A DNA stretch of 64,000 nt, from assembly GCF_024494685.1 (NCBI RefSeq), contig NZ_JANHDM010000004.1, positions 124,001-188,000 of the forward strand. The letters are read 5' to 3'. Made by a program: the position numbers and the translations under genes. The DNA comes from Halorubrum rubrum. GTDB taxonomy: Archaea; Halobacteriota; Halobacteria; Halobacteriales; Haloferacaceae. The notes under the pieces are model-generated. The model was not told the origin of the DNA. It worked only from the letters and a program-made list of their open reading frames with translations, and searched no databases. Below are positions 8,730 to 21,154 of this stretch, piece by piece. Positions within the stretch are counted from its first letter, which is position 1. The number at the start of each line of letters is the position of its first letter.

Positions 8730-10193
8730 TCAATCTCTCAAATCCTCGCCGAAAAGACTGATCTGTACGGGAAGGTTGTCAACGATAGTCTTCCGGAAAC
8801 GGCTTGAGATCGTGAGCAGTGTTGTGAAATACACTGCCGCCCCCAACCCGACTAACGCGAATACGACGACGATGTTGAGGCCGACGATCGAGTATGTGGA
8901 CTCTAGCCATACACCGGTATAGACGAACAAGCCCATGATCGCCGCAGCGATCCACTGTTTGGCGATCTCTCCGACTGGGATTGAGAACGTGATCAATGAC
9001 GAAAGTACAGCGTAAGCCATACCAAGGCTCACAGCGACGGAAGCGGCCGTCGCTGTAGCTGCGCCGACGACACCGAAGCGGGGAATGATACTGAGATTTA
9101 GTACCACGTTTCCGATAATGAATACAGTATTGACACGAAACGACAGATCGGGCCGATCGATCGCGTTTAATGTATTCGTGAACTGACGCTGATATCCTTG
9201 AATTAGTGTGGCGACGATAAGCACGGAGAGAACGACTGCTCCTCGGGAGAATTCCTCTCCGTACACTCGAAGGAGTCGTTCGCCGAGGATCGTTCCGCCA
9301 ACTAACCCGGGGATCAAAATTAATCCCGCAAATGCGAGAGCGGTTTCGAAGAGATCGGCGACCGCTTCTCGGTCTTCATCGGCGGACAACGAGCTCATTT
9401 CAGGGAACAGCGTCTGACTCAACGAACCACCGAACAGTATCAGAAAGACGGCGACGTTCCAAGCCGCCGTGTAGATACCGACAAGCGAGGACGACACGAA
9501 AAAACCGAGAATTGACACGTCCACCCAGTTGAACGCTCGCGAACGGAGAGAACCGATCCATGAGAACTTCGCGTACGAAATTATACTTTGGAAGTGAGAA
9601 CGTCGGGGTAGCGTTATTCGACCGAAGTTCTGGACGACTATCCACGTTCCGAGTACTGCGACGAGTGCGTATCCTATAGCGTATCCAGCAAACAGACCGA
9701 CTAGACCGAGGCCCATAAAAAGTGTAGAGATCTGAACGATGCTCCGGGTTCCCGTTCGAATCGGATTGAAAATACCCGACACGTGAACGAGACTCTGTCC
9801 CTTTAAAACGGCGTTCACCAACGACTGAGCAAGGTTCACGAACAGCAATAGAACAACGAATTCCGCAGCAGGGTACCCGATATAACTGTTTACTGACTCC
9901 CTGAACAGGATCACGCAAATGGCGACCGCTACGAAGAGGATGGCACTAATGGACACGCCCGCGATAGCGTACGTACTCTGTGATTCTCCCTCACTGATAC
10001 GTTTCGTGATGGCACCAGGAACGCCCATCTTCGTGAGAATACCCAACCAAGCGATCATCGAGAGAACGAGATAGTAGGTGCCGAGGCCGTTGGAACCGAG
10101 TATGCGTCCGATAAACACGGTCGCGACGAACCCAAGCACGGATGACGAGAAACGGGACGCGAAGTGGATAATTGACGTCTGTCCCAGACGCAT
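8730..10193 (-). CDS. Oligosaccharide flippase, Wzx/AglR type
   Basis: Polytopic membrane protein of the MATE/PST (polysaccharide flippase) superfamily, 487 aa with about 14 predicted TM helices. I start it at the ATG at 10193 (MRLGQTSIIHFASRF) because haloarchaeal members begin there and a TATA-like element lies about 26 nt upstream; an in-frame start exists at 10262. Probable role: flipping the lipid-linked glycan across the membrane before AglB acts. GC is clearly lower than in aglM or aglB. The 3' end abuts pseudogene debris. The substrate glycan is unknown. Confidence 0.8.
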   Translation of the reverse strand: MRLGQTSIIHFASRFSSSVLGFVATVFIGRILGSNGLGTYYLVLSMIAWLGILTKMGVPGAITKRISEGESQSTYAIAGVSISAILFVAVAICVILFRESVNSYIGYPAAEFVVLLLFVNLAQSLVNAVLKGQSLVHVSGIFNPIRTGTRSIVQISTLFMGLGLVGLFAGYAIGYALVAVLGTWIVVQNFGRITLPRRSHFQSIISYAKFSWIGSLRSRAFNWVDVSILGFFVSSSLVGIYTAAWNVAVFLILFGGSLSQTLFPEMSSLSADEDREAVADLFETALAFAGLILIPGLVGGTILGERLLRVYGEEFSRGAVVLSVLIVATLIQGYQRQFTNTLNAIDRPDLSFRVNTVFIIGNVVLNLSIIPRFGVVGAATATAASVAVSLGMAYAVLSSLITFSIPVGEIAKQWIAAAIMGLFVYTGVWLESTYSIVGLNIVVVFALVGLGAAVYFTTLLTISSRFRKTIVDNLPVQISLFGEDLRD

Positions 10194-10215
10194 GTATCGA
10201 TTGGCGTGAGAGAGG

Positions 10216-10223
10216 ACAATAAG
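10216..10223 (-). promoter_or_regulatory. TATA-like box of the flippase gene
   Basis: On the minus strand this reads cttattgt, about 26 nt upstream of the ATG at 10193. It supports a leaderless start at that codon. Confidence 0.45.
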
Positions 10224-10282
10224 GGCTCCTTTTCGATACTGGTAAGAGCAGTTCTCGTCCAATTTCGGCGCACTGAACGAGA

Positions 10283-12829: not shown

Positions 12830-14020
12830 TCAGTTGGTTCTGAGGGTGCTCTGGAGAGTCTCATCAAGTTTGTCCACGTCAACTCGAATGTCTAATCCAT
12901 CCTGCTCACATTTGAGATATTGATACTCATGATTCATATTTTCTGCGAGGCGGTCGAACGTTGCCATCGTTTTGTCTCCGAATAGTTCGACTACGGTCAG
13001 GTCTTCGCCGTACAGTATGTTCGTCAATCCTGCTCCATGGGGTCCTACGACGAGTTCGGCGCTACTGAACAGTTCAACCTGTTCTTTCACACTGAGTTCT
13101 CCCAGCAGATACGTATCGATGTTGTAGCGGTCAAGGACTTGCTGTACGGCGTCATGATTTGCAATACGACGGACAGTTGCATCCTCACGTGCGACGAAAA
13201 CACGCTTATCGTGATTGTCATTATATCTGAGACCAGCTCTCATTCGGTCACGGATCCAGAAACACTCTCTCGGAATCGGATCAGGAAATGTCGGAACGAC
13301 AAGCGTTTCGACTTTCATTATATTGGCTCCGAATCCTACAATGTCCCCGGAGTAATCCAGTAATTCGAGAGATTCATCCATCCAAGAAGAGCGTTCCTTC
13401 GGAATGAGTAGCGTCGGATACGTTCCAGTCAGATCACCATATTTTTCGAGTAATCGTACGCGGATTAGACACTCAGCTGTCCAGTGGTAGTAGTTGTTCC
13501 ACGGTGACGCAGCAAAGGTAGCTGTTCCAATTTGTTGGTCCGCAGTAGCTCTCCCTTGGAGAGCGTTGAGTGTCGGTCGAATCCCATTCTTCGCCATTGA
13601 TTGGGATACCGAAACACCAGTTCGTCTGGGAACGAGGGGAGGAGTTCCAACTGAATCTGCTATAACTGTTCCCCGGTTAGTGACCCCAGGACCAGCCGGC
13701 CCTAGGAGCGTTACGTCGGAGAATTCGCAGACGAACCTATCGCCGGCAATATACTCGCTCGGCTCATCTAATCCTCGAAATCCAGATAATCCCTTGAGTC
13801 GCATGGGTTCCTCGAATTCATCGAATACATAGCATTGCTCTAGGTCGTATATCTCATCCCGACTTAGAACGTCGATTCTCTCTCGGAGATACTTTTTACA
13901 CACGATTCTGTAGAGGAGGAGATCTTGGATTAGGACATCACGGCCCTCAAAAAGAAGTTCTCTCACTCCGTCTTTCCGGAATTTCCGAAGTGACCGGGCC
14001 GGTAGTTCACCGAGATCCAT
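12830..14020 (-). CDS. Glycosyltransferase family 61 protein (DUF563)
   Basis: Predicted 396 aa from the ATG at 14020; a TTG five codons upstream is an alternative start. The C-terminal half has the GT61 pattern: 'ASPWNNYYHWTAECLIRVRLLEKY', then 'KRVFVAREDATVRRIAN' and the family signature 'VVGPHGAGLTNILY'. GT61 enzymes transfer pentose or GlcNAc-type sugars; the acceptor here is unknown. No TM segment is visible, so it should act at the cytoplasmic face. It belongs to the AT-rich island and its start overlaps, head to head, the start of a decayed GT2 gene. Confidence 0.75.
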   Translation of the reverse strand: MDLGELPARSLRKFRKDGVRELLFEGRDVLIQDLLLYRIVCKKYLRERIDVLSRDEIYDLEQCYVFDEFEEPMRLKGLSGFRGLDEPSEYIAGDRFVCEFSDVTLLGPAGPGVTNRGTVIADSVGTPPLVPRRTGVSVSQSMAKNGIRPTLNALQGRATADQQIGTATFAASPWNNYYHWTAECLIRVRLLEKYGDLTGTYPTLLIPKERSSWMDESLELLDYSGDIVGFGANIMKVETLVVPTFPDPIPRECFWIRDRMRAGLRYNDNHDKRVFVAREDATVRRIANHDAVQQVLDRYNIDTYLLGELSVKEQVELFSSAELVVGPHGAGLTNILYGEDLTVVELFGDKTMATFDRLAENMNHEYQYLKCEQDGLDIRVDVDKLDETLQSTLRTN

Positions 14021-14042
14021 GTCGACTAAACCCAAGACCGGG

Positions 14043-14665
14043 AATGTTTTTAATCACATCGATCAACGAGATTCTCCTCCATTTGAAGTCATTATAGTTG
14101 ACAACGGCTCAATAGACGAAATATCAAATGTTATTAACGAATTCGAAGAAGAATACCCCGAGATCGTTGTCGGTTATAAGGAGGAAGATATTCAGAGTTC
14201 TTACGCGGCTCGAAATACGGGAATTACATACACATCCGATGAAATGCTCGCATTCACTGATACAGATGTTAAGTTGAAAATGACTGAATCTCGGAAGTTT
14301 GCAAAATTTTTCAAGAAGAGAATATTGATTATTTAGGCTGTAACATTGAAATGTACATTCCAGAGGGAGAGAATACGTTCTGGGCACGCTATGATGTCGT
14401 GATGGGGCTTCCTGTCGAACATTATCTGAAATCTAAACAGTTCGCACCGACATGTGCGCTGGTTATTCGGAAAGAGATCATCAAGCAAGTCGGGAAGTTC
14501 GACCAATCATTAGTGTCCGGTGGCGACAAAGAATTCGGCAAGCGCGTACACAAAGCAGGGTTCAACAGTAGATACGCCGCTAACATCATTGTACGCCATC
14601 CTGCTCGAACCACATTTAAGGCCCACCTGAAGAAAGCTGCGCGAATTGGTGAGGGACAAGTCTAA
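14043..14665 (+). pseudogene. Degenerate GT2 glycosyltransferase, decayed paralogue of the gene at 15196
   Basis: Frame one reads FEVIIVDNGSIDEISNVINE, then SSYAARNTGITYTSDEMLAF, ending at a TAG near 14336. A second frame picks up at DYLGCNIEMYIPEGE and continues APTCALVIRKEI ... SGGDKEFGKRVHKAGF ... VRHPARTTF until a premature stop at 14665. Each block aligns in order with the intact GT2 at 15196-16092 (IVDNGSTDNT, SYAARNRGIEHASGDILAF, DYLGCNVE, APTCALLVRREI, SGGDREFGERVHKAGY). The N-terminal strand and the C-terminal 70 residues are missing, and there is at least one frameshift. Confidence 0.8.
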
Positions 14666-15195: not shown

Positions 15196-16092
15196 GTGAC
15201 CCAAGAGCGAATAGCCCATCTGGTTGTTCCAGTGTATAATGATACAAGCGGTATCTCGAAAACTCTCGAATCTGTTTTATACCTATTAAATTCTTCAGCA
15301 ATCTCCGAAATCCTCATCGTCGACAACGGCTCCACAGACAACACTGCCAACGTAATTCGTAACTACGCAGAAAACTACCAAAAGGTCCATCTCCTCGTTG
15401 AAGATGAGATACAGGGTTCCTATGCTGCTCGCAATAGAGGAATCGAACACGCGAGCGGTGATATTCTAGCCTTCCTTGACGCCGACGAAACTGTCGACGA
15501 GGACTGGTTGGAAACAGCCCTCAAAACAATGGAGGAACAAGACATCGATTACCTCGGGTGTAACGTCGAACTCACGTGCCCGAAAGACACCCTCGTTGGC
15601 AGATACAACGCTCAAACTGGTTTCCCTGTGAAGGAATATCTCGAGGAGGAGAACTACGCGCCAACGTGCGCACTTCTCGTCCGCCGAGAAATATTCGAAG
15701 ACGTAGGACTCTTCGATAGCCGACTCATCTCGGGGGGCGATAGAGAGTTCGGCGAACGCGTCCACAAAGCGGGCTACAAGCAAGGATATGCCGAGGACGC
15801 CATCGTCTACCATCCCGCCCGAACCTCATTCGAGTCCCTCGCGAAAAAGAACTTCCGCGTTGGGCGGGGATTCTGTCAGAAACAGCGCTACTACCCGGAT
15901 CGCTACGGGAAACCAGGGATCCCGCCGAGGCCCGACGGACCGAGTGGAGAGGACGGTGACGCCCCCGATTCGTCGCTCACGCGTCTCGCGTTCGCGTTCC
16001 TCTCAGTCGCCATGCTTGCGTGTCGCGGCCTCGGCTATTACTACGAGTTCCTGTTCGGCGAGGAAAGAGACTTTCCCGAACCTACGCGTTAG
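15196..16092 (+). CDS. Glycosyltransferase family 2 (GT-A fold)
   Basis: A 298-aa GT2 enzyme that begins at a GTG. The nucleotide-sugar-binding strand is 'HLVVPVYNDTSGISKTLES', followed by 'ILIVDNGSTDNT', the DxD-type 'AFLDADETVDEDW' and a conserved 'SGGDREFGERVHKAG' segment. A hydrophobic stretch near the C-terminus ('LAFAFLSVAMLACRGLGYY') may anchor it to the membrane, as expected for a dolichol-phosphate-dependent transferase. The first 600 nt are AT-rich like the island, whereas the last 250 nt have backbone-like GC, suggesting a recombination edge within the gene. Its end overlaps the end of aglG (convergent). Confidence 0.8.
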   Translation: MTQERIAHLVVPVYNDTSGISKTLESVLYLLNSSAISEILIVDNGSTDNTANVIRNYAENYQKVHLLVEDEIQGSYAARNRGIEHASGDILAFLDADETVDEDWLETALKTMEEQDIDYLGCNVELTCPKDTLVGRYNAQTGFPVKEYLEEENYAPTCALLVRREIFEDVGLFDSRLISGGDREFGERVHKAGYKQGYAEDAIVYHPARTSFESLAKKNFRVGRGFCQKQRYYPDRYGKPGIPPRPDGPSGEDGDAPDSSLTRLAFAFLSVAMLACRGLGYYYEFLFGEERDFPEPTR

Positions 16093-17020
16093 CCTTCTCG
16101 ATTAGGTCCGGCGTCACCACCGCGTACAGATACCCCAACCCGACCGCTCCAGTAAACACGCCGATCGCCGCCAACTGTGCCACCGCGGCTCGCGACGGTG
16201 ACCGAACGAGCCCCTCCAGCCGTCGCGGCACCCTATCCGTCACCAGCCACTTCAGATACTCTCCCTTGGCGTCGGGCGCGTCCGGGTACAAAAGATCCAT
16301 CACGCGCTTGGAGTACCCCTGCCAGAACGACCGAAACAGCAGCCAGCGAAATTCCCCTCGGTACTCGAACAGGGTGTGGTGGACGACCGCGTCCTCCGCG
16401 TACACCATTCCCTTCCCGAACTGTTCCAACAGACGGATCCCGACCGGAGCCTCGTGCGCTTGGAGGTGTTTGTCACCCTTCCGTCCCGTGTTCGGATCGT
16501 ACCCGCCGACCTCGAGGAACTGCTCCCGTCGGTACGAGATGTTCGACCCGTACGTGTTCCGGACCTCCTCGCCGTCCTCCGCGAAGCCAGGTTCGACACA
16601 GCCGACGAGCCAGTAGAACTCCTCGGGGAAGAAGTCGGGCCGGTCACCCTGCCAGTCGGGTTTGACGTCGCCGCCGACCGCGATCGCGTCGGTCGTCTCG
16701 TACACCTCGACGAGCGACTCGATCCAGTCGTCCTCCGCGACTCCGTCGTCGTCAATGAACGCGATGATCTCGCCGGAGGCCAGTTCCCCACCCTTCGTCC
16801 GGCTGTAGGAGATCCCGCGGTTCTCCTCGTTGTCGTGGATCACGACGTTCTCACGAGCACCAAAGTCCTCCAGTGCTCGCTCGTACACTTCGGGGTTGCC
16901 GTCGATCACCAACACGACCTCGATCGGGTCGTACGTCTGGGAGAGTGCGCTCTCGACGGCCTCCGTGAACGCGTCGTAGCGGTCCATCGTGTACGTACAG
17001 ACGACGACGGAGACCTTCAT
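16082..17020 (-). CDS. aglG: GT2 glucuronosyltransferase AglG-like
   Basis: A 312-aa GT2 enzyme with 'KVSVVVCTYTMDRYDAF', 'ENRGISYSRTKGGE', the DxD-type 'AFIDDDGVAEDDW' and 'DVKPDWQGDRPDFFPEEF', closely patterned on Haloferax AglG, which adds glucuronate to glucosyl-dolichyl phosphate. One TM helix near the C-terminus ('VAQLAAIGVFTGAVGLGYLYAV') suits work at the membrane. It is divergent from aglB with about 97 nt between starts; a TATA-like cttattcg lies 25-30 nt upstream. Its donor would be the product of AglM. The paralogue AglI is an alternative. Confidence 0.75.
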   Translation of the reverse strand: MKVSVVVCTYTMDRYDAFTEAVESALSQTYDPIEVVLVIDGNPEVYERALEDFGARENVVIHDNEENRGISYSRTKGGELASGEIIAFIDDDGVAEDDWIESLVEVYETTDAIAVGGDVKPDWQGDRPDFFPEEFYWLVGCVEPGFAEDGEEVRNTYGSNISYRREQFLEVGGYDPNTGRKGDKHLQAHEAPVGIRLLEQFGKGMVYAEDAVVHHTLFEYRGEFRWLLFRSFWQGYSKRVMDLLYPDAPDAKGEYLKWLVTDRVPRRLEGLVRSPSRAAVAQLAAIGVFTGAVGLGYLYAVVTPDLIEKANA

Positions 17021-17074: not shown

Positions 17075-17080
17075 TATATA
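17075..17080 (+). promoter_or_regulatory. TATA box of aglB
   Basis: The sequence ggtatataac has its tatata core at 17075-17080, about 40 nt upstream of the aglB ATG. This predicts a 5' leader of roughly 15 nt. Confidence 0.6.
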
Positions 17081-17117
17081 ACAAGGCTTATGGACGTTTT
17101 CGAAGAGTCATCGTGTA

Positions 17118-20100
17118 ATGAGCCAGCGAACCGACACCGCCGAGGAGGACGACGCTCCCCTCGACCTCCTCAAGCGGTGGTACCACGTCCCGGCCCTCCT
17201 CGGGATACTGGTCTTCATGCTGTGGACCCGCCTCCGATCGTACGGCAACTTCGTCCGCGACGGCGAGGTGTACTTCCGCGGGAACGACCCGTGGTACCAC
17301 CTCCGCGAGACGAGCTACCTCCTCGAGAACTGGCCGAACACGCTCCCGTACGACGTGTGGACCGGGTTCCCGTTCGGGAATCAGGCGGGACAGTTCGGCA
17401 CCCTCTGGGACCACATCATGGCCGTGGGCATCTGGATCGCCGGTCCGATCATGGGCGGCCCCGAGGAGGTCATGCTCGTCATGGCACCCATCGCGGGAGC
17501 CCTCGTCGCGGTCCCGACGTACTTCATCGCGCGGCGATTCGTCGACCGCCCGGCCGCCCTCGTGGCGTCCGGCGTGCTCGCGCTCCTTCCGGGCACGTTC
17601 TTCACCTACTCGCTCGTCGGGTTCCCCGACCACAGTGCGGCCGAGGTGTTCTTCCAGTCGGTCGCCGTCCTCGCGTTCCTCGTCGCCTTCGCGGCCGCGG
17701 AGCGTGACGTGCCCGTCTGGGAGCTCGTCGTCGACCGCGACTGGGACGCCCTCCGCCGCCCCGTCGCGTACGCCGCCGCCGCCGGCGTCGCGCTCGGCCT
17801 CTACATCTGGACGTGGCAGCCGGGGATCCTGATGGTCGGGTTCACCGGCGTCTACCTCGCGCTCAAGATCACGAGCGACACGTACCACGGCAGGAGCCCG
17901 GAACCGATCGCCTTCGCCGGATCCGTCTCGATGGGCGTCGCCGGACTGATGCAGCTGATCCCCCTCGACACGTTCTCGTTCGACGTGACGGGCTACTCGC
18001 TGCTCCAGGTGATCCTCCCGATCGGCGTCGCCGTCGGCGCGGTCTTCCTCGCGTGGCTCGCCCGCCAGTGGGAGTCACGCGAGCTCGAAACCGAGACGTA
18101 TCCGGCGGCGGTCGGCGGTCTGATCGTCGCGTCCGCCGGATTCCTGTGGCTCGCGCTTCCGTCGCTGTGGTCGACGCTCTCGAGTAACCTCCTGAACTTC
18201 GTCGGCTTCAGCGCGAGCGCCAGCTTCCAGACGATCGGGGAGGGTGCGCCACCGCTTCAGGACGCCTCCTTCGCGGAATTCGTCCTCGGTCAGTACGGTC
18301 TCGCCTTCTTCCTCGCGCTCGCGGCGGTCCTCTACGTCGTCGCGCGCCCGCTCTACCGCTCCGAGGACCCGAACCACACGCTGTACATTCCGGCCGCACT
18401 CGCGGTCGTCGGCTCCGTCTACGCGGTACCCCAGCTGTACGGCGCGGTCGGCGGCCTCGTCGGCGTGGGCTGGCAGGTGGTCGGGCTCGTGCTCGCGGCG
18501 GGGTTCCTCGTCGGCGCGACGTTCCTCGTCGAGTACGACGCCGAGGAGCTCTACTTCGTCGTGTGGGCGGCGTTCATCGGAAGCGCCGCGTTCACCCAGA
18601 GCCGCTTCAACTACTACCTCGCGGTGGTCGTCGCGGTCGGCGCGGCGTACTTCCTCCAGGTCGTCTTCGACGCGATCGACCTCACCTCGCTCCGTGCCCT
18701 CCGCGAGATCGAGGGGTGGCAGGTCCTGACCGCGGTCGCGGTGCTCGCGGTCCTCCTCGTGCCGCTCGTGGGGGTCGCCACGCCGGTGTGGACCGCGGGC
18801 AACTCGACCGGACCGGGCAGCGTCGTCGAGTGGGACGAGAGCCTCCAGTGGATGAACGACGAGACGCCGCACCCCGGCGAACTGGAGGGTGCCGACAACT
18901 CCATGGAGTACTACGGAACCTACGAACGCCCCGCCGACGGCGACTTCGACTACCCGGAGGGCGCGTACGGCGTCCAGTCGTGGTGGGACTACGGCCACTG
19001 GATCACCACCCGCGCCGAGCGGATCCCCAACGCCAACCCGTTCCAGCAGAACGCCGCCGAGGCGGCGAACTACCTGCTTGCGCCGAGCGAGGACGCCGCG
19101 CGGGAGGTGCTCGCGAGCCAGAGCGAGGAGGGCGAACACACCCGATACGTGATGGTCGACCGCGAGATGGCCTCGCCGAACTCCAAGTTCGGCGCGCCCG
19201 TGACGTTCTACGACGAGGGGAACGTGACGCGGGAGGACTTCAACCGACCCATCTACCGACAGGGTCAGCAGGGCGGGTTCGGTACGGTGATGCAGGTGAA
19301 CACTCAGCGTTACCACGAGAGCCAGATGATCCGGCTGTACGAACACTACGGCAGCGCGGTCGAGCCCGAGCCGGTCGTGGTCGACTGGGAGACGCAGACG
19401 GCGGAGACGGCGGACGGCGAACGGGTCGAACTCGCCGTGCTCCCCGAGGATCCACGGTCGATGGTCCGCCAGTTCGAGAACGTCTCCGCGGCCCGCGAGT
19501 ACGTCGAGGAGGACGGGAGCGCCCAGGTCGGCGGGGTCGGCGGGCTTCCGTCCGAGCGCGTCGACGCGCTCGAACACCACCGGCTCGTCCACGCGACCGA
19601 GTCGCAAGGGCAGTCGGCCTCGGCACGACAGGTGCGGGTGCTCCAGCAGCTCGGCGTGGACTTCGAGGAGGTCCTCGGCGAATCCGCGCTCGCCGCGTTC
19701 CAGGATAACTGGGTGAAGACGTTCGAGCGCGTCCCCGGCGCGACGATCGAGGGAAGCGGCGCGGAGCCGGGCGAGGAAGTTCGAGCGGCCGTCGAAATGG
19801 AGAAACCTTCCGGCGAGACGTTCGTCTATCAACAGTACACAGAGGCCGATAACGATGGTAACTTCGAGTTCACAGTGCCGTACTCGACGACCGGATACGA
19901 CGAGTTCGGGCCTGAGGAGGGGTACACCAATACGAGCGTGCGGGCGACCGGTCCCTACGAGGTCACGACGGGTGTGGCGTCAGGCGACGACGACGTGACC
20001 CCACAGGCCGGACGGGTGAACGTCACCGAGGCACAGGTGATCGGCGAGGATGACGCCGCCGCGACCGTCGAACTCGAACAGGTCCTGTCGGGAGACGACG

Positions 20101-20204
20101 GTGGAAGCGGGTCCGACGAAGGCAGTACCGGCACAGCCGACGACGAGACGAACGAGTCGAGCGGCTCGCTCGTCGCCCCCGAACGCGTCGCCGTGGCCAC
20201 CTGA
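17118..20204 (+). CDS. aglB: Oligosaccharyltransferase AglB (STT3 family, GT66)
   Basis: The 1028-aa catalytic subunit that transfers the dolichol-linked glycan to Asn in N-x-S/T on the outer face. The N-terminal half is polytopic (about 13 TM helices). The first acidic catalytic loop is 'YFRGNDPWYHLRETSYLLENW' at about residues 53-73, followed by 'GFPDHSAAE'. The soluble C-terminal half begins near residue 570 and holds the hallmark WWDYG at 622-626 (VQSWWDYGHWITT). A 'VMVDREMASPNSKF' segment occupies the region where archaeal DK-type motifs are found. The acidic C-terminal tail, about 25 residues of Gly/Ser/Asp, ends in VAPERVAVAT. Full length for the family. The DUF368 gene follows after 5 nt. 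Confidence 0.95.
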   Translation: MSQRTDTAEEDDAPLDLLKRWYHVPALLGILVFMLWTRLRSYGNFVRDGEVYFRGNDPWYHLRETSYLLENWPNTLPYDVWTGFPFGNQAGQFGTLWDHIMAVGIWIAGPIMGGPEEVMLVMAPIAGALVAVPTYFIARRFVDRPAALVASGVLALLPGTFFTYSLVGFPDHSAAEVFFQSVAVLAFLVAFAAAERDVPVWELVVDRDWDALRRPVAYAAAAGVALGLYIWTWQPGILMVGFTGVYLALKITSDTYHGRSPEPIAFAGSVSMGVAGLMQLIPLDTFSFDVTGYSLLQVILPIGVAVGAVFLAWLARQWESRELETETYPAAVGGLIVASAGFLWLALPSLWSTLSSNLLNFVGFSASASFQTIGEGAPPLQDASFAEFVLGQYGLAFFLALAAVLYVVARPLYRSEDPNHTLYIPAALAVVGSVYAVPQLYGAVGGLVGVGWQVVGLVLAAGFLVGATFLVEYDAEELYFVVWAAFIGSAAFTQSRFNYYLAVVVAVGAAYFLQVVFDAIDLTSLRALREIEGWQVLTAVAVLAVLLVPLVGVATPVWTAGNSTGPGSVVEWDESLQWMNDETPHPGELEGADNSMEYYGTYERPADGDFDYPEGAYGVQSWWDYGHWITTRAERIPNANPFQQNAAEAANYLLAPSEDAAREVLASQSEEGEHTRYVMVDREMASPNSKFGAPVTFYDEGNVTREDFNRPIYRQGQQGGFGTVMQVNTQRYHESQMIRLYEHYGSAVEPEPVVVDWETQTAETADGERVELAVLPEDPRSMVRQFENVSAAREYVEEDGSAQVGGVGGLPSERVDALEHHRLVHATESQGQSASARQVRVLQQLGVDFEEVLGESALAAFQDNWVKTFERVPGATIEGSGAEPGEEVRAAVEMEKPSGETFVYQQYTEADNDGNFEFTVPYSTTGYDEFGPEEGYTNTSVRATGPYEVTTGVASGDDDVTPQAGRVNVTEAQVIGEDDAAATVELEQVLSGDDGGSGSDEGSTGTADDETNESSGSLVAPERVAVAT

Positions 20205-20209
20205 TCCGG

Positions 20210-21154
20210 ATGGCGGACGTTCGGGACTGGCTCGTCGTGTACCTGAAGGGGCTGGCGATGGGGTCCGCCGACGCGGTTCCGGGCGTCTCGGGCGGCACCA
20301 TCGCGCTCATCGTCGGTATCTACGAGCGGCTGATCGCGGCGGTGACCGCGATCGATCCCGACCGGATCGCGCGCGTGCTCGCCGGGATACGAGCGAGCGA
20401 CCGCGCCGACGCGCGGGCCGCGTTCCGCGAGGTCGACGGGGGGTTCCTCACCGTCCTCGGCGCGGGGATCGGAACCGCCGTCGTCCTCGTGTTGAGCCTC
20501 GTCGACGCGCTCCTCGCGGCGGTTCCCGTCGCGACGTACGGGTTCTTCTTCGGGCTGATCGCCGCCTCCGCGTTCGTGCTCTACGGCGCGGTCGATCTGG
20601 AGACGACGGGCAGGAAGGCGGCGGCGGTCTGCGGCTTTCTCGCGGCGTTTCTCGCGTCGGGGTACGCCGCGACCGCGCTCGGCCACGCGCTCCCGGTCGT
20701 CTTCTTCTCGGGGGCGGTCGCGGTCAGCGCGATGGTCCTCCCCGGCCTCTCGGGATCGCTGCTCCTGGTCGTCCTCGGACAGTACGAGTTCATGTCGGGG
20801 ACGCTCGGCGCGTTCCTCGACGGGATCGCCGCGGCGGCCGCGGGCGAGGGAACCGCCGGGATCGTCGGGGCCCTCCCGCCGATCGTCGCGTTCCTCGCCG
20901 GCGGGGTCCTCGGGCTGTTCACGATCGCCCACGCGGTTCGACGCGCGCTCGAGGCCGCCCGCGCCGCGACGCTCGCGTTCCTCGTGAGCCTGATCGTCGG
21001 CGCGCTCCGCGCTCCGGTGATCGAGGTCTCGATGCGGCTCGCCGACTCTGGCGGGACGTGGGGCGAGGCGTTCCCGCGATTCGCGGCCGCCGCGGTCGCC
21101 GGCGCGGTCGCCGTGATCGCGATCGATCGGCACGCGGGCGTCCTCGAGTACTGA
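20210..21154 (+). CDS. DUF368 (PopT-type) polyprenyl-phosphate transporter
   Basis: This 314-aa polytopic protein has the DUF368 signature at its start ('YLKGLAMGSADAVPGVSGGTIALIVGIYERLI') and a second, symmetry-related motif ('VSAMVLPGLSGSLLLVVLGQYE'). In bacteria, DUF368 proteins (PopT) return undecaprenyl phosphate from the outer to the inner leaflet. In this archaeon the matching carrier is dolichyl phosphate, released by AglB. It begins 5 nt after aglB on the same strand, so it is almost certainly co-transcribed. That placement suggests a role in dolichyl-phosphate recycling; the substrate is an inference. Confidence 0.85.
   Translation: MADVRDWLVVYLKGLAMGSADAVPGVSGGTIALIVGIYERLIAAVTAIDPDRIARVLAGIRASDRADARAAFREVDGGFLTVLGAGIGTAVVLVLSLVDALLAAVPVATYGFFFGLIAASAFVLYGAVDLETTGRKAAAVCGFLAAFLASGYAATALGHALPVVFFSGAVAVSAMVLPGLSGSLLLVVLGQYEFMSGTLGAFLDGIAAAAAGEGTAGIVGALPPIVAFLAGGVLGLFTIAHAVRRALEAARAATLAFLVSLIVGALRAPVIEVSMRLADSGGTWGEAFPRFAAAAVAGAVAVIAIDRHAGVLEY

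Follow-up and report, generated by a model that had tools for sequence, protein, structure and literature searches.

Class-wide pairing of aglB with a DUF368 family gene in Halobacteria suggests a candidate transporter for the return of dolichyl phosphate

Bacterial DUF368 proteins have been reported as undecaprenyl-phosphate translocases (PMC9876793), and the current Pfam name of the family, PF04018, is undecaprenyl phosphate translocase-like. Its members include VCA0040 of Vibrio cholerae, PopT (SAOUHSC_00846) of Staphylococcus aureus and the archaeal HVO_RS12060 of Haloferax volcanii, a complementation-tested member that partly complements a V. cholerae vca0040 mutant (PMC9876793). Here we describe a DUF368 gene located directly downstream of aglB, the gene for the archaeal oligosaccharyltransferase, in a stretch of 64,000 nucleotides of the Halorubrum rubrum genome (the window; contig NZ_JANHDM010000004.1, positions 124,001 to 188,000). 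The product comes from the same class, Halobacteria, as HVO_RS12060 and shares PF04018 and the PGxSG repeat motifs with VCA0040 and PopT. Unlike these two proteins, it comes from an archaeal host that lacks peptidoglycan, where dolichyl and not undecaprenyl phosphate is the expected substrate, and its gene is predicted to be in an operon with that of the oligosaccharyltransferase.

The glycans of H. volcanii are assembled on dolichol phosphate and moved by AglB at the outer face, and for the haloarchaeal N-glycans studied so far the carrier is mainly dolichyl monophosphate (PMC3871713). The outward crossing of the loaded lipids is unsettled, AglR being described as involved and no more (PMC4335974). 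AglR of H. volcanii belongs to a membrane step of the same pathway, but this step is the outward translocation of dolichyl-phosphate mannose, the opposite direction to the one considered here. Recycling of the carrier is not mentioned in the passages of these two articles that were consulted. An earlier note on this DNA knew of no protein assigned to this step, and the archaeal articles consulted assign none to the return of dolichyl phosphate to the inner leaflet after glycan transfer. A qualification is that archaeal DUF368 had already been tied to polyprenyl-phosphate translocation by the cross-complementation experiment, and action on polyprenyl phosphates had been suggested (PMC9876793); what appears to be new is the class-wide pairing with the oligosaccharyltransferase. 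No report of an aglB–DUF368 pairing was found in the openly accessible literature, a search that did not extend to subscription papers, preprints or a concurrent PopT paper, and no title on archaeal glycosylation was found among the DUF368 papers listed for 2022–2026.

The coordinates of all features are collected in Table 1. The AglB amino acid sequence matched TIGR04154 (archaeosortase-associated STT3) with 920.1 bits (cut-off, 450) and, above their cut-offs, the Pfam families PF02516, PF22627 and PF18079 (STT3, AglB_core-like and AglB_L1 domains). The region of the catalytic motif WWDYG reads SWWDYGHW in the translation. The DUF368 protein, the product of the only PF04018 gene in the source genome, matched this family with 193.6 bits (cut-off, 26). 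These analyses bore out the earlier note in its description of a DUF368 gene starting 5 nt after aglB on the same strand, including coordinates, gap and family identities. The short distance between the stop and start codons makes translational coupling likely. A TATATAA sequence located upstream of aglB is likely to be the TATA box of the aglB–DUF368 transcript, and no AT-rich box was found by reading the 80 nt upstream of the DUF368 start codon. The arrangement therefore resembles that of a two-gene operon within an N-glycosylation cluster.

PF04018 was present in 192 and TIGR04154 in 193 of the 194 Halobacteria genomes. Once the match lists were completed, 191 genomes had placed copies of both genes. 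In 125 of them DUF368 was the next gene 3′ of aglB in the same orientation, and one gene separated the two in 8 more; in the other 58 the genes were unlinked or on separate contigs, some of the latter cases being due to draft assemblies. The linkage extends to 46 of 64 genera, and every one of the nine families with data has it, which indicates conservation beyond the genus. The survey of adjacency called for by the earlier note was thus carried out, and since the pairing spans the class, a linkage confined to close relatives is excluded. Gaps and neighbours were compared using one locus per linked genus (46 loci). The distance between the genes was −4 nt in three loci, −1 in six and 0 in two; it did not exceed 9 nt in 21 and was shorter than 160 nt in 42. 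A gene was inserted between aglB and DUF368 in four loci, three of which (L079, L092 and L095) share a family that resembles UDP-glucose dehydrogenase by sequence; these three may represent an intermediate state before loss of the linkage. No fusion of aglB with DUF368 was found among the 46 loci.

Genomes within a class are related and these counts alone leave inertia as a possible cause of the linkage; the surrounding genes serve as a control. The next most common neighbour family within 6 kb of the pair occurred in 20 of the 46 loci and varied in position, and in 18 a gene from one family, on the opposite strand, was directly before aglB. Since the neighbour families are common to at most 20 loci, the pair is more than part of a frozen block: it persists while the surrounding genes turn over. 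One genome of the window's own genus (G186, 180 contigs) was without matches to AglB and DUF368, which reflects either joint loss of both genes or a gap in the assembly at the operon.

A tree of 92 DUF368 proteins placed the halobacterial ones in one group (support, 100/100), the deepest branches of which are occupied by linked copies. Most of the unlinked copies form a single clade nested among linked ones: 20 such copies, found in families f3 and f4, group together (98/92) inside a set that otherwise consists entirely of copies from family f1 (100/100). The simplest reading of these phylogenetic data is that the linkage is ancestral in Halobacteria and that in some lineages the linked copy gave way to an f1-type copy that had spread. 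One genome, G005, retains both a linked copy and an f1-type copy.

The two halves of the window DUF368 protein are related in sequence (E, 4e-7), the similarity lying around PGVSGGT...GIYE and PGLSGS...GQYE. Both motifs (PGVSGG...GIYE and PGxSG...GQYE) were invariant or nearly so in 44 archaeal and bacterial sequences, and the window protein has them. The AlphaFold2 model is confident and all-helical (mean pLDDT, 93.2; pTM, 0.87), with helices broken at both motifs. The protein is viewed here as a pseudo-symmetric membrane protein in which the broken-helix motif PGxSG occurs twice. Comparison by sequence with solved structures yielded no match at E values up to 1, and a Foldseek search of the model against the PDB gave none under 0.5. 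The best VIA-align Z scores were 9.4, with ZIP zinc transporters, and about 7–8, with halves of MFS proteins; these are in the range of common helical arrangements, and therefore the likeness was not used.

Taken with the reported function of the family and the H. volcanii complementation, the linkage makes the return of dolichyl phosphate the most likely role. We propose, with a probability of about 0.68, that the window DUF368 gene encodes a polyprenyl-phosphate transporter that serves AglB by returning dolichyl phosphate inward. Glycan assembly on dolichyl phosphate would take place at the inner face, and the loaded carrier would be flipped outward, for which a MOP-type flippase encoded in the same cluster is a candidate. 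Transfer of the glycan to surface proteins by AglB would then leave the carrier in the outer leaflet as dolichyl monophosphate. Since haloarchaeal N-glycans are mainly on dolichyl monophosphate, the lipid freed by AglB should be of the type that DUF368 proteins reportedly handle. For reuse it would have to regain the inner leaflet, and the DUF368 protein may return it there for reloading. Co-transcription and the close or overlapping stop and start signals could match the supply of the transporter to the release of carrier by AglB. The substrate of the archaeal protein, its direction of transport and its expression matched to that of AglB are what we infer here. The proposal is favoured by the adjacency across the class, the turnover of the other neighbours, the occurrence of DUF368 in nearly all Halobacteria genomes, the tree, the absence of both genes from G186, a gene run in Thermoplasmatota, the complementation, and the presence of AglG and the flippase in the cluster.

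In Thermoplasmatota, DUF368 was found in 19 of 116 genomes. Four of them (loci L178, L253, L254 and L255) have an operon-like, one-strand run of STT3, AMMECR1, pyrC, DUF368 and an inositol-phosphatase-like gene, in which STT3 and DUF368 are two genes apart; prs is upstream of the run where tested. This is a second, looser link between STT3 and DUF368, in another phylum and mixed with housekeeping genes. Direct aglB–DUF368 adjacency was seen only in Halobacteria. In L254 the run continues with PcrB, of ether-lipid synthesis, and a flavoprotein.

Several observations weigh against a role in dolichyl-phosphate return for AglB. The window protein scored 161.8 and 69.7 bits with the NCBIfam PopT equivalogs NF052564 and NF052563, below the 400-bit cut-off, and therefore its assignment is to the family and not to either equivalog. 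No transport data for an archaeal DUF368 protein in an archaeon were found in the literature consulted, nor any archaeal phenotype for HVO_RS12060. In a sample of other Halobacteriota, DUF368 was found in about 21 further genomes and the AglB core in 138 of 148 overall; none of these DUF368-bearing genomes had direct adjacency to aglB, and the neighbours there were unrelated housekeeping genes (uracil salvage genes, methanogenesis marker 12, phosphoglycerate mutase and a tRNA ligase). Among controls, Methanocaldococcus jannaschii, Sulfolobus acidocaldarius and Methanosarcina acetivorans have the STT3 family and no DUF368. Being missing from many AglB-bearing archaea, DUF368 is not a general archaeal solution. 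Within Halobacteria, G021 has AglB and lacks DUF368, the sole such case seen in the class, and G118 (family f4, 4.3 Mb, rated 100% complete) has one DUF368 gene and no STT3/AglB above the cut-off. Proteins of the UptA/DedA family (PF09335), undecaprenyl-phosphate flippases with the same proposed task in bacteria, occurred in all 70 haloarchaea tested and are a second candidate. They could share the work, so a single DUF368 deletion may show little. The DedA family differs from DUF368 in Pfam, and no aglB neighbour family at a comparable rate was found in the 46 loci. The proposal of the earlier note that archaeal DUF368 retrieves the spent dolichol carrier stands in part. As a prediction it is well supported, by the ancestral, class-wide linkage and the fitting substrate; it is qualified by the earlier cross-complementation, the AglB-bearing archaea without DUF368, the lack of adjacency in other Halobacteriota, the genome without AglB and the DedA alternative.

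Judging from G118, AglB is probably not the sole user of the protein. The protein could be a general transporter for all dolichyl-phosphate pathways (N-glycans, terminal mannose transfer and exopolysaccharide) that would act as proposed without being dedicated to AglB, its place next to aglB being explained solely by AglB consuming the most. Such a role would also suit the many f3 and f4 genomes in which the sole DUF368 copy is unlinked, and the separate dolichyl-phosphate carriers for other sugars described for haloarchaea (PMC3871713). We regard it as unlikely since the ancestral and lasting pairing is with aglB and not with other dolichyl-phosphate enzymes. The unrelated neighbours outside Halobacteria fit another explanation, in which DUF368 moves a different lipid or serves salt or pH homeostasis of the envelope and the pairing reflects ancestral co-expression without a common substrate; Sit et al. 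proposed a role in high-salt adaptation and noted the enrichment of the family in Halobacteria (PMC9876793). This seems quite improbable, given that an archaeal protein partly complements the mutant of a bacterial undecaprenyl-phosphate translocase (PMC9876793) and that the pair stays while its neighbours turn over.

Transport in the opposite sense, in which DUF368 works outward or on loaded carriers and brings glycan-charged or free dolichyl phosphate to AglB, would fill a vacancy: no protein is fully assigned to the export of lipid-linked glycans in haloarchaea, and AglR is credited only with involvement (PMC4335974). The substrate reported for DUF368 proteins is the free lipid phosphate, though, and for the loaded lipid a MOP-type flippase is already encoded in the window cluster, which leaves very little room for this explanation. 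Dolichyl-phosphate return could go further and take the form of a dedicated module, with AglB and the transporter made from one message, perhaps in a complex, and the released dolichyl phosphate handed over directly. This extension is tentative and we are inclined to doubt it; if true, it would give archaea their first dolichyl-phosphate recycling step with an assigned protein. Linkage to the oligosaccharyltransferase throughout a class makes the DUF368 gene a named, deletable candidate for dolichyl-phosphate return in tractable haloarchaea; in Halorubrum lacusprofundi an aglB deletion strain is already available (PMC10384203). Moreover, gene order in a domain without peptidoglycan provides outside support for DUF368 proteins handling polyprenyl phosphates generally.

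In three f29 genomes aglB and DUF368 are within about 15 kb of each other, which was not accepted as linkage as the DUF368 neighbours are uracil permease and upp. A 968-amino-acid gene beside DUF368 in Methanobrevibacter was not accepted as AglB, its product being Ig-like/lipase-like. As a separate observation, the unlinked DUF368 of L163 (G130, contig C91) lies about 450 nt from an opposite-strand gene of the DedA family, so that two families proposed for the same job are close together. G130 was the only case of DedA beside an unlinked DUF368 copy, and no DedA-sized family recurs at these copies.

The genes surrounding the pair in the window include those of glycosyltransferases and of the flippase (Table 1). 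A sulfatase gene is also found to the left of the aglG-type gene, and a convergent methyltransferase gene is to the right of DUF368.

Table 1. Features of the aglB–DUF368 locus and its surroundings (positions in the window).
Feature	Position	Strand	Evidence
aglB, archaeal oligosaccharyltransferase, 1028 aa	17118..20204	+	TIGR04154 and Pfam matches, WWDYG motif
DUF368/PopT-family membrane protein, 314 aa, proposed dolichyl-phosphate transporter	20210..21154	+	PF04018
Stop/start junction TGA-TCCGG-ATG, 5-nt gap	20202..20212	+	Sequence; TGA 20202-20204, ATG at 20210
TATATAA, putative TATA box of the aglB–DUF368 transcript, 36 nt 5′ of the aglB ATG	17075..17081	+	Sequence reading
First conserved DUF368 motif (DAVPGVSGGTIALIVGIYERL), broken helix in model	20270..20332	+	Invariant P24 G25 S27 G28 G29 T30; helix break 22-27
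Second conserved DUF368 motif (SAMVLPGLSGSLLLVVLGQYEFM), repeat of first	20726..20794	+	Invariant M175 L177 P178 G179 S181 G182 Y192; helix break 177-181
aglG-type gene (glucosyl-dolichyl phosphate glucuronosyltransferase), divergent from aglB	16082..17020	-	NF041394 equivalog, 500.8 bits, cut-off 440
GT2 glycosyltransferase, same cluster	15196..16092	+	PF00535, 107.7 bits
GT61-type glycosyltransferase, same cluster	12830..14035	-	PF04577, 71.7 bits
MOP/Wzx-type flippase, candidate for the outward (forward) step	8730..10262	-	PF01943, 66.4 bits; PF03023, 32.2 bits

Two tandem short open reading frames on the + strand (14019-14336 and 14351-14665) resemble the halves of one broken GT2 gene, similar to the intact one at 15196-16092.

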